In this document: piece after piece, positions 5,119 to 25,396 of the stretch
How the letters are laid out: every line of letters starts with the position of its first letter
How positions within the stretch are numbered: position 1 is the stretch's first letter
Source of the DNA: a virus
Reading direction: 5' to 3' (one strand)
DNA length: 30,262 bases
IMG/VR virus record: IMGVR_UViG_3300043331_001089
Span: 1-30,262 of that record
Program-made: the position numbers and the translations under genes
Notes under the pieces: generated by a model
What the model was told of the DNA's origin: nothing
Database searches by the model: none
What the model saw: the letters and a program-made list of their open reading frames with translations, nothing else

Positions 5119-5609
5119 AGCAGCTGCTGCTTCGCTTAGACGAGCCGAGTGGATGGCGCCGCGTTCCGAAATCTCACCCGGCCGCTTGCGAACTTGCTGA
5201 CCGCCACTACAGTCGGCGCAAGCCAGGATCACCTCAGTTCATGCCTCCTGGCGAGACTCTCGTTCTGCTCTATACCGACGAACTGGCGCTGTTCGGGTGG
5301 TGGCGCCCGCACCCGTCATCCGGTATCCCGAGCATGAACGGGCTTGATGGCTGGACGTGCACCATTTTCCGCAATGAGGGCCCACAGCTGTCAAGCGACC
5401 TCATCCTCTTGGCCGAACGCGCCCTTGCGGAATCGGGCTGGGATTGCGGACCCGACGGCCTGATCACGTACGTCTGGGATGGACGGGTCAAGTCTATCAA
5501 TCCAGGCTATTGCTTTCAGGTAGCTGGTTGGTGCAAGGCAGGCAGGTCCGCCGACGGACGCAAGACGTTGCTCCGCAAACCGTGGTCTGCCGCCGGCCAG
5601 TGCAGATGA
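5115..5609 (+). CDS. Phage GNAT-fold-like protein, candidate Mom-type DNA modification
   Basis: The 164-residue protein contains ELADRHYSRRKPGSPQFMPP (26-45) then LVLLYTDELALFGWW, and near the end GLITYVWDGRVKSINPG then YCFQVAGWCKAGRSADGRK (131-149). This layout resembles GNAT-like proteins of the Mom group, in which a conserved C-terminal G-x-Y-x-x-A-G-W block precedes the last strand. Mom acylates adenine in phage Mu DNA; whether this relative does so is inference. The gene is coupled on both sides by ATGA overlaps. An alternative is a general phage GNAT of unknown substrate. Confidence 0.5.
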   Translation: MKQLLLRLDEPSGWRRVPKSHPAACELADRHYSRRKPGSPQFMPPGETLVLLYTDELALFGWWRPHPSSGIPSMNGLDGWTCTIFRNEGPQLSSDLILLAERALAESGWDCGPDGLITYVWDGRVKSINPGYCFQVAGWCKAGRSADGRKTLLRKPWSAAGQCR

Positions 5610-6451
5610 CCACCGATTTCTGGGCGCCGGCGCCGGACTGCTGGCGTGGCGACACCCTGGCGATCCTGTTCGGCGGCAAGAGCATCATTCCTCAACCGCT
5701 GCACCTGCTGCGCGGCCGGTGCCGGGTCGTCGCCATCAACAGGGCGTACCAGCTGGCGCCGTGGGCCGACATGCTCTACGGCGCCGACGCGGCCGAGTTC
5801 TGGGTCTGGTGCGGCGGCGAGAAACGGCTCTTGCCAGGCGAGCCCGACGCGCTCGACTTCGCCGGTGACAAGGTCACGCTCTGGTCGCCCGAGCTCGACG
5901 AGCGCCAGCGCGCGCACCTCGCGTGGTGCCGCGAGCAGGGCATCAAGGTAATGCGGCACCGCGGCGACGGCTGGCATACCGGGCTGGAGCTGGAGCAGGG
6001 CTGGGTCCGCGGCAACAACAGCGGGGCGCAGGTGCTTTCGAGCTGGGTGCCGCAGACTGGGATCGCGAAGGTGCTGCTGATCGGGCTGGACATGATCCGC
6101 AACGACACCCAGGACCAGCACTGGCATCGGGCTTGGCCGCGGCGCGAGCCGCACTACGAGAGCCGCGGCGGTGAGCGCCGGCACCCGGCGGTGATCCGGC
6201 TCAACGGCCGCGACGTCGAGATCGGCTGGTACGAGAAACCGGAGACAGCGCGAGCGGTCGCCGACTGGTATGCCGACCACATCGCGAACGGCTGCCGGCC
6301 GCAGCCGCAGCGCCGCCAGCAGGGCATGATTCCGCGCTACGCGACCTATGCCGCGATGCTTGAGCAGCGTGGGGTGGACGTGGTGAACTGCAATCCCGAG
6401 AGCGCCGTCCGGTGCTTCCGGTTCGGCCGGCTGGAGGACGAGCTGCCATGA
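5606..6451 (+). CDS. Rossmann-like GGxS phage protein (DUF115/glycosyltransferase-like)
   Basis: The 281-residue protein opens with LAILFGGKSI (18-27), a strand-Gly-Gly-loop, and VVAINRAYQLAPWADMLYGA (41-60), a combination known from phage-encoded and DUF115-like nucleotide-sugar-binding proteins. VLLIGLDMIRND and HWHRAWP follow in the second half. It could be a sugar transferase or a sugar-phosphate-binding protein; the sequence does not decide. ATG 5606 overlaps the previous stop. It has a long Arg/Gln-rich tail. No export signal is present. Confidence 0.6.
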   Translation: MTTDFWAPAPDCWRGDTLAILFGGKSIIPQPLHLLRGRCRVVAINRAYQLAPWADMLYGADAAEFWVWCGGEKRLLPGEPDALDFAGDKVTLWSPELDERQRAHLAWCREQGIKVMRHRGDGWHTGLELEQGWVRGNNSGAQVLSSWVPQTGIAKVLLIGLDMIRNDTQDQHWHRAWPRREPHYESRGGERRHPAVIRLNGRDVEIGWYEKPETARAVADWYADHIANGCRPQPQRRQQGMIPRYATYAAMLEQRGVDVVNCNPESAVRCFRFGRLEDELP

Positions 6452-6696: not shown

Positions 6697-7267
6697 GATC
6701 CGCGTGCTGGTGGGCGACTGTATCGCGCGGCGGCGTGTCGCTTATGCCGACCCACCTTACATTGGCTGCGCTCACTTGTATCCCGAGAAAACTGAAGTTG
6801 ACCATGCAGCACTGATAGAGCGGCTCGATAGAGATTTTGACGGGTGGGCTTTGTCGTGCTCCACACCTAGTTTGCGTCACCTGCTACCGCTCACGCCGCC
6901 AGACACTCGGATAATGGCTTGGGTCAAGCCGTTCTGCTCTTTCAAGCCTGGCAATCGGGTGGCCTATGCGTGGGAGCCGGTGCTTGTACGTGGCGCCCGC
7001 AAGGGCTCACGAGACGAGCCTACAGTGCGGGATTGGGTTTCAGCTAATATCACGCTAGAGCGCGGGTTGTGTGGTGCCAAGCCGGATGAATTTGCTTTCT
7101 GGCTATTCGACGTTCTACTTGATCCTGGTGACGATCTTGTCGATTTGTTTCCTGGAACAGGCGCAATCATGGAAGCCTGGCGGTTATGGCGTGCGCAGCG
7201 CCGGCCACTCGCGAATGTCGAGCCCGGCAAGCCGCGACCGATACAAATGGCGTTATTCGGTGGCTGA
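6689..7267 (+). CDS. DNA adenine-N6 methyltransferase, permuted order
   Basis: The 192-residue protein has DPPY at 21-24 (motif IV, typical of adenine-N6 transferases) and LVDLFPGTGAIMEAW (150-164; motif I, SAM binding) at the C-terminal side, so the motif order is circularly permuted (beta-type). KPDEFAFWLFDVLLDPG between them fits the family. Short size and no visible target-recognition domain suggest a small phage orphan enzyme. The DNA here is visibly less GC-rich than its neighbours, which suggests recent transfer. It probably methylates phage DNA against restriction. Confidence 0.8.
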   Translation: MGEIRVLVGDCIARRRVAYADPPYIGCAHLYPEKTEVDHAALIERLDRDFDGWALSCSTPSLRHLLPLTPPDTRIMAWVKPFCSFKPGNRVAYAWEPVLVRGARKGSRDEPTVRDWVSANITLERGLCGAKPDEFAFWLFDVLLDPGDDLVDLFPGTGAIMEAWRLWRAQRRPLANVEPGKPRPIQMALFGG

Positions 7268-7856
7268 GATCGTCCGCTCGGTCCCGGCGATGCTGGCGCG
7301 ATCGAACCCGATCCTGGCGCGGCTCAACGGCCTGCGGCGGCCGGTCATGGTAGAGATCGGCACCTCGGGCGGGCTGATGGCCGAGCACCTGCTTGCGAGC
7401 CGCGACGACCTGATCCTGCACTGCGTGGACAGCTGGGCGGACCGCAGCGCCCAGCCGGTCGCCTACATCGCGACCGGCGACATCCACGCCCGCTTGACAC
7501 AGGCCGATCAGGACTTTCTCGCGGCGACCGCGATGGGGCGCCTGAGGCGGTTCGGCGCGCGCGCGGTCGTCCACCGCATGACGTCCCTGATGGCTGCCGA
7601 GCAACTGATGGACGGCGTTGCAGACCTGATCTTCGACGACAGCGACCACAGCTACCTGGGGGTGAGGTCCTCGGTTCGGGCCTGGTGGAGGGTGCTGCGT
7701 TCGGGCGGCTACTTCGGCTGGCACGACTACGACAACGCGTCGAATCCTGCCTATGATTTTTCTGGTGTCCGGCGCGCGGTAGACGAGTTCGCTGCCGAAC
7801 ATGGACTGTCAGTCGGGCTCGATACGGGCTACACCGCGTTCGTGGTCAAACCATGA
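7260..7856 (+). CDS. SAM-dependent methyltransferase, Methyltransf_24-like
   Basis: The 198-residue protein has VEIGTSGGLMAEHLL (31-45, SAM loop), HCVDSWAD, and LIFDDSDHSYLGVRSSVRAW with RSGGYFGWHDYD downstream, the arrangement of the Methyltransf_24/CmcI-like group that O-methylates sugars and small molecules. GTG 7260 gives an 8-nt overlap with the previous gene; ATG 7215 or 7290 are in-frame alternatives. It is immediately upstream of, and coupled to, glycosyltransferase B, which hints at modification of the same glycan. Confidence 0.7.
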   Translation: MAEIVRSVPAMLARSNPILARLNGLRRPVMVEIGTSGGLMAEHLLASRDDLILHCVDSWADRSAQPVAYIATGDIHARLTQADQDFLAATAMGRLRRFGARAVVHRMTSLMAAEQLMDGVADLIFDDSDHSYLGVRSSVRAWWRVLRSGGYFGWHDYDNASNPAYDFSGVRRAVDEFAAEHGLSVGLDTGYTAFVVKP

Positions 7857-21664: not shown

Positions 21665-22309
21665 TCAATCGAACATCTTTCTCTGCTCGGGTCGAGCCGA
21701 CCATTCGATCGGGCACTGCACCGCGTCCCAACGGTCGGCCATCCGGCGCGCGCCGTTGTGCGGCCGGTTGTGGTTGCGCGCAATGTCCGTGCTGTCGACG
21801 CTGGAGAGCGGCCAGCGCTTGCCGGAACACGCCATCATCCGCAGGCCGTGAAGCCATACCGGCACCCGTCCAGATCCGCGGCAGAGCGTGTTGAAGGCCT
21901 CATCCATGCGGCGCTCCCATGCTTCTGTGCCGATCTCCGCATAGGCGCCAGCCGAACCAAGGCAGATGCGCGGCCAGCCGCTGGCGAGCATCAGGAGCCG
22001 GTGCAGAGGCTCGTCCAGGTGCCAGACCGGGGCGCCCCGGTAGCCGAGCGGCCACTGATCGAGCAGTCTGTCATTCCGCGCCGGCCCGCCGTCGATCACA
22101 TCGGGGATCACAGCGTAGTAGGCGCGCCAGTCGGGCACATGCCCGCGGCGCCAGGCCGAGAAAGCCCCGTTATCGAGCATCAGGCTTTGCCCGAGCTGCC
22201 GTGCGTGGCCGACCTGATCAGGTCGCGCGAACGACACGCAGAAGTGGCGTCCGGCAAGCTCGTAAAGCACGCAGAGCGGAGATATGGGCGTGCCATGGTA
22301 GTGGATCAC
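21665..22309 (-). CDS. dpdA: DpdA-like DNA guanine transglycosylase
   Basis: The 214-residue protein is related to tRNA-guanine transglycosylase and matches the phage DpdA group, which swaps guanine in DNA for a 7-deazaguanine base. It has FCVSFARPDQ (23-32), MLDNGAFSAWRRG (44-56; D46 matches the first TGT catalytic Asp), VWHLDEPLHRLL, the HGLRM loop (154-158) and SSVDSTDIARN (169-179), where D172 or D175 corresponds to the TGT nucleophile region. GTG 22309 overlaps the transporter stop (GTGA). It is short compared with tRNA enzymes, and no zinc site is seen, as in several phage forms. Confidence 0.75.
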   Translation of the reverse strand: MIHYHGTPISPLCVLYELAGRHFCVSFARPDQVGHARQLGQSLMLDNGAFSAWRRGHVPDWRAYYAVIPDVIDGGPARNDRLLDQWPLGYRGAPVWHLDEPLHRLLMLASGWPRICLGSAGAYAEIGTEAWERRMDEAFNTLCRGSGRVPVWLHGLRMMACSGKRWPLSSVDSTDIARNHNRPHNGARRMADRWDAVQCPIEWSARPEQRKMFD

Positions 22310-22782
22310 GCCGCGCACGCTCGCCTCTGGATCGACCAGGCCACCACTGCAGCCCCGAGCATCTTGCTCGCGGTCATCAAAGCGACCCCAGACCAGCTGA
22401 AATGCCCGATCAACAGAAGGAACACGGCGCTGTCGATCGGCGTGCCGAACGCAGAGCTCCACAGGATGCGCTCGTGCAGCGGACGGCGCGTCCAGGTGTA
22501 GACGCCCCAATCGGCGACCTCGCTGATCAGGAACGCCGTGGCGCTGGCGATAGCAACGTAGGGCGACGCCATCAACCAGCTCAACACTGCTCCGGCAAGC
22601 ACGGCGAGCAGCACGCCGTGTCCTACCTCACGCTGGGCAAAGTCGCGCAGCACGAACACAAAGCCGACCGCCAGCGACATCGGCGGCCACATATCGCCCC
22701 ACGGAGTCGGCAGCAGCGGGACCTGCTCGAAGCCATAGTTGACCGCGGCGATCGAGAGGATATAGGCGCCGGTCAGCATCAT
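22306..22782 (-). CDS. yhhQ: YhhQ/Vut_1-type 7-deazaguanine precursor transporter
   Basis: The 158-residue membrane protein has about six helices and the family blocks VNYGFEQVP, LRDFAQREVGH (45-55), SEVADWGVYTWT (87-98) and GTPIDSAVFL (113-122). YhhQ proteins import queuosine precursors (preQ0/preQ1). It is coupled to DpdA by GTGA and to the preceding exported gene by ATGA. It is shorter than the usual ~220-residue chromosomal version, which is common for phage copies. The transport role here is inferred from the family. Confidence 0.78.
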   Translation of the reverse strand: MMLTGAYILSIAAVNYGFEQVPLLPTPWGDMWPPMSLAVGFVFVLRDFAQREVGHGVLLAVLAGAVLSWLMASPYVAIASATAFLISEVADWGVYTWTRRPLHERILWSSAFGTPIDSAVFLLLIGHFSWSGVALMTASKMLGAAVVAWSIQRRACAA

Positions 22783-23279
22783 TGCCGGATCGCCACGAGG
22801 TCAGCGGTGCGGACCTGCTGCGCGCCGGTTTCGGTCGGCTGGCCGAGCCCGATCTGCCCGCCGCCGGTCGCCATGGTGCCGGCCCGATTGAAGTTGATCC
22901 TCGCCAGGGTGCCATTGCCTTCCACGAGCCACTGGCATTGGTCGCCACTCGCAGGATCGTCGGTGAGCGTGTAGCTGACCGACACCAGCGGCGAGCCGAC
23001 GAAGTCGCTCTCGCACCGCACGGTAGCGGTAACGTCGCGGCCGCGCGGCCGGAGCACCGCCCGGCAGGTCGAGACGCGGGTCTGCTGGTCGTATTCGCCG
23101 GCGCCGTTCTGCCCCTCGACCACGACGGTCGCGGTGATGTACCAGACGGCCTGGCTGGTGCCGGCGATCGCCTGGGCCGAGCATGGCGCCGCGGCCTTGG
23201 CTTTCTTGCGCTTGCCGGCTTCCGCCGCCGGGGCGGAGAGCAGGGCTAGGACGGATACGGCGGCTAGGAGTCGTTTCAC
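22779..23279 (-). CDS. Exported beta-rich protein
   Basis: The 166-residue protein has a signal peptide (MKRLLAAVSVLALLSAPAAE, GTG start) and a mature beta-rich part (VWYITATVVVEGQNGAGEYD, LVSVSYTLTDDPASGDQCQW) with three to four Cys. It is coupled on both sides by overlaps. No family is recognised; a surface or periplasmic role is likely. Confidence 0.6.
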   Translation of the reverse strand: MKRLLAAVSVLALLSAPAAEAGKRKKAKAAAPCSAQAIAGTSQAVWYITATVVVEGQNGAGEYDQQTRVSTCRAVLRPRGRDVTATVRCESDFVGSPLVSVSYTLTDDPASGDQCQWLVEGNGTLARINFNRAGTMATGGGQIGLGQPTETGAQQVRTADLVAIRQ

Positions 23280-23452
23280 TGCGGGTCTCCTGTTGCGGGT
23301 GTGGTCAGGTGGATGATACCGGCCGGGAGGTCCGGTCGGATCAGCGCGATTCCGATGAGGACGAGCGCCACCAGGACGGCGGCCAGGAGGTTCTCAAAGC
23401 GGCGGCGGTCGCGCTCGGCCGCCACTTCGGGATCAGGCAAAGGCTGGATCAT
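23276..23452 (-). CDS. Single-TM small protein
   Basis: The 58-residue protein (MIQPLPDPEVAAERDRRRFE then NLLAAVLVALVLIGIALI) has a charged N-terminus, one hydrophobic helix (21-38) and a Pro/Thr-rich tail. It overlaps both neighbours (ATGA at 23449-23452 and GTGA at 23276-23279). A spanin-like or membrane-anchoring role is possible, with no lysis gene nearby. Confidence 0.6.
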   Translation of the reverse strand: MIQPLPDPEVAAERDRRRFENLLAAVLVALVLIGIALIRPDLPAGIIHLTTPATGDPQ

Positions 23453-23994
23453 TTCGGGCGCTTTCGGTTGATGAAGCTGATCGCGTAGACTTCGGGGTTG
23501 TCAGCCCACCGGGTTCGCGGCTTATCGTGGAGGTGGTCCCACAGCTTGGCGAAGCACGCGATGGGACCCTCGTATGTTTCCGAGGCCGTGACCGAGTGCG
23601 GATGAACCCCCGGCACGTACCAGAACGGCGGGTCGGCCGATTCCCAGACTACCCCTTCGGCCTCGGCCTCATTGCGAGTGATCTCATGCAGAGGCTCCAG
23701 GCGAACCGTCTCGACGCGCAGGAATATCCGGGCGGCCCAGCGCGGCATGTAGCGGGCAGATCGCCAGATCAACGCGGGATCGTCGCCATGATCGGCGTGA
23801 TACGTCACGTCCCTGGCGTCCGGATCAGGGATCCAGCATCGCTCGCGGACCCACAGCCAGCACTCCTCGCCGGCGGCGTGGTGTTTGGCGACGTGCTGCC
23901 ACGCCCTGCTCTTTAGCCGACGGGTCATGGTCTTCCGGCCTTGGCGGATTGCCTGGATCATCGGCGCTGAGAAGATCACCGAGGTCTCGATCAT
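23449..23994 (-). CDS. ASCH-like phage protein
   Basis: The 181-residue protein has the ASCH-type pattern VIFSAPMIQAIRQGRKTMTR (6-25) and RR, then CWLWVRERCW and YMPRWAARIFLRVETVRLEP (beta-barrel strands), and HEITRNEAEAEG. ASCH/PUA-like folds bind modified bases or RNA. It sits in the same operon as the DpdA-like protein, so a role in reading or protecting the modified base is conceivable but unproven. Confidence 0.65.
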   Translation of the reverse strand: MIETSVIFSAPMIQAIRQGRKTMTRRLKSRAWQHVAKHHAAGEECWLWVRERCWIPDPDARDVTYHADHGDDPALIWRSARYMPRWAARIFLRVETVRLEPLHEITRNEAEAEGVVWESADPPFWYVPGVHPHSVTASETYEGPIACFAKLWDHLHDKPRTRWADNPEVYAISFINRKRPK

Positions 23995-24744: not shown

Positions 24745-24962
24745 TGGATGAGATCCTTCCGCGGCCTGCCCTGAGGCCGCTTGGGCAGCCCGGCGCGCGC
24801 GGCGATCGTCCGCAGGCTTTTTTGGCCAAGCCCGGTCAGTCGTGTCAGATCGGCGAACTTGGCCCCCCGTCGCATCAACTCGACGATCGCCTCGTCGCGC
24901 ATTTGCTCCGCCGCCTGCATCGCCTCTACGGCCTTAGAAAGCCGCGCCTCAGGCTTTTTCAT
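24741..24962 (-). CDS. Small helix-turn-helix protein
   Basis: The 73-residue protein has a long N-terminal helix (LSKAVEAMQAAEQMRDEAIV) and an HTH in the C-terminal half (FADLTRLTGLGQKSLRTIAA), ending in a basic KRPQGRPRKD tail that suits DNA contact. It resembles in layout the plus-strand protein at 1599-1814. It overlaps the DUF6283 gene (ATGA). Likely a regulator. Confidence 0.65.
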   Translation of the reverse strand: MKKPEARLSKAVEAMQAAEQMRDEAIVELMRRGAKFADLTRLTGLGQKSLRTIAARAGLPKRPQGRPRKDLIH

Positions 24963-25396
24963 ACCCCCATCTGCCCGTCATCCCGACATGGCGTCAGCAC
25001 GGGATCGTCCTCGTCGACCCCGTTTGCCTCCGCCATTTCACGGTAGGTGTCGAACGTCGGAACGGCCCGCCGAAGGCTCGCTGGATCGAAGTCGCCGGCG
25101 GCCATGGCGAGCCTGACCGCAAGGTTGTGCCGGCCCTGCGCGATCAGGAACCCGGCGCAGATCTGGGGCTTGTTGGTCCCGGCCATGTGGCAGGCGAAGG
25201 TATGGGTCGACATGTCGTAGGCGGTCCGGGCAGACAGGCGGTAGGCTTCGGCCGGGAATGCCCCGAGCGGGCTGTCCAGCCGCCACGGGCACTCGACGCA
25301 GACCTCGGTCCGGTAGATCCGGCACCCGTCGGTCTTGACCGTGGCTACGGCGTGGTCCGGGCCTGCGATGCGGCGGGCTATGAACTGCGCGCTCAT
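24959..25396 (-). CDS. DUF6283-like protein
   Basis: The 145-residue protein has CVECPWRLDSPLGAFP (33-48), FACH (67-70) and CAGF (80-83), the signature of the phage DUF6283 family; C33, C36, C69, H70 and C80 would form a metal site. Function of the family is unknown. It is coupled to both neighbours (ATGA). Confidence 0.8.
   Translation of the reverse strand: MSAQFIARRIAGPDHAVATVKTDGCRIYRTEVCVECPWRLDSPLGAFPAEAYRLSARTAYDMSTHTFACHMAGTNKPQICAGFLIAQGRHNLAVRLAMAAGDFDPASLRRAVPTFDTYREMAEANGVDEDDPVLTPCRDDGQMGV

Follow-up and report, generated by a model that had tools for sequence, protein, structure and literature searches.

Overlapping genes for a YhhQ/Vut_1-type transporter and a DpdA-family transglycosylase lie on a 30-kb virus contig (a 30,262-base IMG/VR record, referred to below as the window), and the pair probably constitutes a salvage cassette that imports a 7-deazaguanine base and inserts it into phage DNA. 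As the DpdA of the window lacks one barrel helix, the working cassette is best regarded as a property of the family. A general role of the pair in salvage, as read from the genomes compared here, is supported by two patterns: yhhQ adjoins dpdA in 51 of 80 related loci, and genes of a partial precursor pathway occur only in family records that lack yhhQ.

The gene pair and its genomic setting

The TGA stop codon of yhhQ and the GTG start codon of dpdA share the tetranucleotide GTGA (GCGGCGTGATCCAC), which bears out the overlap described in a first-pass annotation of this DNA (Table 1). Both genes belong to a run of overlapping minus-strand open reading frames (23449-23994, 23276-23452, 22779-23279, yhhQ, and dpdA) that starts near 23994 and is headed by a phrog_874 protein whose ASCH likeness is sub-threshold; the product of the 22779-23279 frame gave no PHROG or Pfam match in profile searches. 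The codon-position GC of yhhQ and dpdA falls within the range of their neighbours, and neither a preQ1 riboswitch nor any other Rfam family was found in the window.

Table 1. Features of the yhhQ-dpdA region (window coordinates).
Feature	Position	Strand	Observations
DpdA-family transglycosylase	21665..22309	-	214 aa, GTG start; phrog_887; 40% identity to MED16 DpdA; family profile matches CAjan DpdA
Codon of D172 (VDSTD), putative nucleophile	21794..21796	-	invariant (n=87); aligned to CAjan DSS
Junction codons 65/66, where 12-14 residues are missing relative to all other relatives	22112..22117	-	alignments; blastn break at 22114
Codon of D46 (DNGAFS), motif equivalent of the TGT general acid/base Asp	22172..22174	-	invariant (n=87); aligned to CAjan DSGAF
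YhhQ/Vut_1-type 7-deazaguanine-precursor transporter	22306..22782	-	158 aa; PF02592 above gathering score; phrog_4899, E 5e-33; 42% identity to CAjan preQ0 transporter
Upstream ORF, no family	22779..23279	-	166 aa; N-terminal signal-like stretch; ATGA overlap with yhhQ
Upstream ORF of the same run, phrog_874	23449..23994	-	weak ASCH resemblance, below cut-off

The window record looks like a fragment; it has tail genes, but the proteins scanned included no recognisable terminase, portal, or capsid family. In an attempt at host assignment, its 977-aa tail protein found no match in the phage collection. Elsewhere in the window, a DUF6283 protein is encoded at 24959-25396 on the minus strand (PF19800, E 1.1e-36), and among unidentified plus-strand genes there are PHROG matches named alpha-2,3-sialyltransferase (5606-6451, E 3.7e-19) and DNA methyltransferase (7260-7856, E 1.7e-17); the product of 1821-2462, also on the plus strand, carries an N-terminal J-domain-like stretch, NPYEILGVRRNAS...HPDSPGG.

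Family assignment of the two proteins

Members of the YhhQ family (QPTR; COG1738) import preQ0 or preQ1 for queuosine. The window transporter passes the Pfam Vut_1 profile (PF02592; 30 bits, cut-off 27.2) and scores below the NCBIfam equivalog TIGR00697 (26.9 bits, cut-off 50.95); the protein annotated as a preQ0 transporter in phage CAjan itself falls under the Pfam Vut_1 cut-off. Six transmembrane segments are expected of the family, of which a crude hydropathy scan resolved three clear ones in the 158 residues of the window protein and more in its relatives. When the transporter and DpdA were compared with PDB sequences by phmmer, no matches were returned.

The window DpdA matches PHROG 887, named queuine tRNA-ribosyltransferase, with an E-value of 3.4e-46, contains the motifs DNGAFS and DSTDIARN, and is 40% identical to the DpdA of Pantoea phage MED16. 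The profile of its family reaches CAjan DpdA at E 5e-9, with DNGAF and DST aligned to the DSGAF and DSS of that enzyme, deletion of which abolishes dPreQ0 in CAjan virion DNA (PMC6884629). D46 and D172, which by analogy with TGT are the putative catalytic residues, are kept in the window protein and are invariant across 87 aligned sequences. Neither the window DpdA nor any of 46 relatives matched the TGT family PF01702, and hhalign failed to match the DpdA family to a host tRNA TGT; kinship with TGT is therefore drawn from CAjan, MED16, and a comparison of folds. In the last of these, the model of an intact relative (locus L008; pLDDT 90.6) found Cap10, a TGT-family enzyme of CBASS, as its best PDB match (E 1.7e-4), with archaeosine TGT also among the structures matched. 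The sole matches of a family profile among PDB sequences were to polynucleotide kinase and were judged to be chance. A 1.7-kb phage record named Staphylococcus phage (OR850331.1) holds a DpdA gene whose match has an identity equal to that of Salmonella phages; the record is possibly mislabelled.

The two family assignments of the first-pass annotation, a YhhQ/Vut_1-type transporter and a DpdA-like transglycosylase, hold on these scores and motifs, and the loss of both catalytic Asp residues, which it had raised as grounds for doubting the latter, is not seen in the alignment. The window gene is a DpdA family member by descent; that it is in working state does not follow.

A missing barrel helix in the window's DpdA

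Between Y65 and P69, the window DpdA lacks 12-14 residues that are present in all 86 of the other aligned sequences, including two near-invariant Trp residues; the first-pass annotation had missed this gap. In the L008 model, the absent segment forms a helix (residues 61-71) and the lead into a strand (77-80), and the DpdA proteins of CAjan and a Vibrio phage align along this helix. Nucleotide matches (blastn) of the window to many relatives break at 22114. The predicted structure of the window protein has a pLDDT of 79, lowest around residues 41-70, and a structure search with it returned no PDB match below E 0.1, the TGT-family match being lost; the intact TGT-type barrel seen in L008 is thus not retained in the window protein, in which one helix is gone. 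On these models, the function of this particular copy is doubtful.

Either this phage has truly lost the segment or the assembly is in error. That the window pair is decaying, dpdA having lost a core helix in frame and become inactive, with the transporter left as a remnant or in another role, is a serious if tentative possibility: the loss is unique (one of 87 aligned relatives) and spares even the CAjan and Vibrio phage proteins, the predicted fold is degraded, and the window DpdA sits on a long branch of the tree (0.54; median 0.12). Against decay, the frame, both catalytic Asp residues, and the codon-position GC bias of the gene (0.68/0.52/0.80) are intact, there are no stops, and the remainder aligns end to end. 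An error of assembly or sequencing in a metagenomic contig, with an ordinary dpdA in the true phage, is somewhat unlikely; it would agree with the restriction of the gap to one metagenomic record and the presence of the segment in all other relatives, but the gap preserves the reading frame, and another contig of the same phage was not found for comparison (a search with one 26-base motif yielded none, and a search with another motif yielded only relatives with approximately 43-50% protein identity).

Recurrence of the pair and possible alternative precursor supplies

Recurrence was assessed in the 80 IMG/VR loci that best match the window DpdA, with adjacency defined as a yhhQ within 600 bases of dpdA on the same strand; because the loci were selected in this way, the counts describe the subfamily of the window protein. 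Under this definition, yhhQ adjoins dpdA in 51 of the 80 loci (downstream in 37 and upstream in 14), and in none of the 80 does it lie elsewhere, away from dpdA. Given this recurrence, chance adjacency of the two genes was rejected. On one 12.7-kb viral contig (L052), dpdA occurs twice, once on each strand, and both copies have a yhhQ of their own beside them. In a tree of 135 DpdA proteins, which divides into two clades, yhhQ accompanies 55 of the 85 rows of one clade and one of the 50 rows of the other; as the partner state must change 24 times or more on this tree, the pair has formed or been lost repeatedly.

Profiles for QueC, PTPS/QueD, GTP cyclohydrolase I (FolE), and radical SAM proteins found zero matches in the window, confirming the first-pass annotation, which had reported no queC, queD, queE, or folE there; since the record is a fragment, this absence is weak evidence. 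It is firmer in two complete phage genomes, those of Pseudanabaena phage Pam5 (39.5 kb) and Rhizobium phage RHph_N3_2 (43 kb), which carry both dpdA and yhhQ, side by side in RHph_N3_2 and with a single open reading frame between them in Pam5, and in which QueC, QueD, FolE, and radical SAM profiles likewise found nothing.

Among 49 subfamily records searched whole, with CAjan set aside, Vut_1 was found in 32 and a PTPS/QueD match in five (three of them under the Pfam cut-off), with no overlap between the two sets (hypergeometric p approximately 0.003, calculated by hand and ignoring the relatedness of the records); profile searches found no QueC, QueD, or FolE in any subfamily record having yhhQ. 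Five loci (L004, L015, L018, L039, and L075) have a short PTPS/QueD-like gene at or near dpdA and no yhhQ, and L039 and L075 add a QueE-like radical SAM gene; in two QueD-bearing records, a radical SAM match exceeds the cut-off. YhhQ on the one hand and QueD, alone or with QueE, on the other look like alternative supplies of the same precursor. A bolder reading, which we hold to be unlikely, is that a modular precursor-supply unit has been assembled repeatedly around one DpdA subfamily, with one of YhhQ and a shortened pathway (QueD, alone or with QueE) but never the two together, according to whether preQ0 is made by the host or imported; the outcome would perhaps not be bulk DNA replacement but a mark that is sparse or confined to particular sites, or even a conjugate with a protein.

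With regard to the host, all 18 bacterial genomes that hold DpdA relatives encode a TGT, and QueC is matched strongly in 16 of them, so that preQ0 could be made in the latter without import; in most such bacteria, import would add to the host's precursor supply and not replace it. A strong QueC match is absent from two of the six genomes with an adjacent pair and from none of the 12 in which dpdA has no adjacent yhhQ, a difference that is suggestive of dependence on import and not significant (Fisher p approximately 0.10, by hand). The two genomes, a Devosia ginsengisoli MAG and Rhizobium subbaraonis (which hold loci L093 and L094), encode, besides a TGT, another Vut_1 protein of greater length, and these bacteria may depend on salvage.

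Proposed mechanism and competing explanations

In the proposed mechanism, YhhQ would bring a 7-deazaguanine base (preQ0 or preQ1) into the cell during infection, in addition to or in place of what the host provides, and DpdA, as a TGT-fold enzyme, would use two Asp residues to exchange guanine in phage DNA for the imported base; DNA so modified should be protected from restriction. We infer the transport substrate, the DNA target, and the protection from characterised relatives. Bulk base replacement is not to be assumed, because characterised DpdA-only phages contain dADG in traces (approximately 0.13% of G in the virion DNA of MED16, which has dpdA only, and 0.02% in 7-11) or not at all (Orion) (PMC8306585 for MED16). 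Where the first-pass annotation had proposed salvage, precursor import has gained from comparison (the 51 adjacent loci and the lack of QueC, QueD, and FolE beside yhhQ); its assumption of a working DpdA does not carry over to the window copy, with its lost helix and degraded fold.

The pair could instead serve tRNA queuosine or the nucleobase supply of the host, as might be expected from the import of preQ0/preQ1 for queuosine by the YhhQ family and from the tiny modification levels in DpdA-only phages. We consider this improbable: the DpdA family is far from tRNA TGT (the PF01702 and hhalign comparisons both fail) and closer to the DNA-acting DpdA of CAjan, the DpdA of phage 9g failed to complement an E. 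coli tgt mutant (PMC6884629), and the bacterial genomes already encode TGT in every case. Still less credible is a protein target, to which a deazaguanine would be added or from which it would be removed, as by Cap9/Cap10 of type IV CBASS. This idea draws on Cap10 with its deazaguanylated CD-NTase, the solved structure that the intact relative matches best, and on the trace levels at which DNA modification in DpdA-only phages is known; yet the TM-score to Cap10 is only 0.54 at 12% identity, archaeosine TGT scores about the same (0.53), records with the pair have no QueC-like Cap9 gene, and the CAjan homologue acts on DNA. Salvage for DNA modification remains the preferred reading of the pair.

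Relation to known systems and significance

That such phages salvage the base is not a new idea: in Hutinet 2019 (PMC6884629), where DpdA-only phages were described, uptake of the precursor was put forward and YhhQ was recorded in phages, with no pattern to its occurrence; its Group 3, exemplified by Salmonella phage 7-11, resembles the present case in having DpdA without preQ0 biosynthesis genes, with a host-made or imported precursor proposed and YhhQ present in some phages. Whereas YhhQ was reported there to correlate with none of the phage groups, yhhQ adjoins dpdA in most loci of the subfamily surveyed here (51 of 80). MED16 shares the DpdA family of the window protein and the lack of biosynthesis genes, and its virion DNA contains dADG (PMC8306585), but it has no adjacent transporter and its DpdA retains the helix that is missing from the window protein. 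Seuratvirus/Queuovirinae phages such as CAjan encode a YhhQ-type transporter and DpdA in one region, and differ in also encoding FolE, QueD, QueE, and QueC; CAjan DpdA is, moreover, a distant homologue. In Pam5 and RHph_N3_2, the two genes likewise lie beside or near each other and biosynthesis genes are absent, although dpdA precedes yhhQ (the reverse of the window order) and DpdA is full length; no study of its function was found in the literature.

The first-pass annotation had considered the compact two-gene form to be of interest. The salvage cassette is real, and it is new in extent, not in kind, uptake and phage YhhQ having been raised in 2019; the novelty of the cassette survey is itself not certain. 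The present comparison adds the consistent adjacency of yhhQ within one DpdA subfamily, together with an apparent exclusion of QueD. The missing helix of the window DpdA serves as a warning that motif matches alone do not prove a working enzyme. The source of the modified base in DpdA-only phages has been a standing question since 2019, and the occurrence of a compact transporter and enzyme pair in complete isolate genomes devoid of biosynthesis genes makes the salvage idea directly testable.
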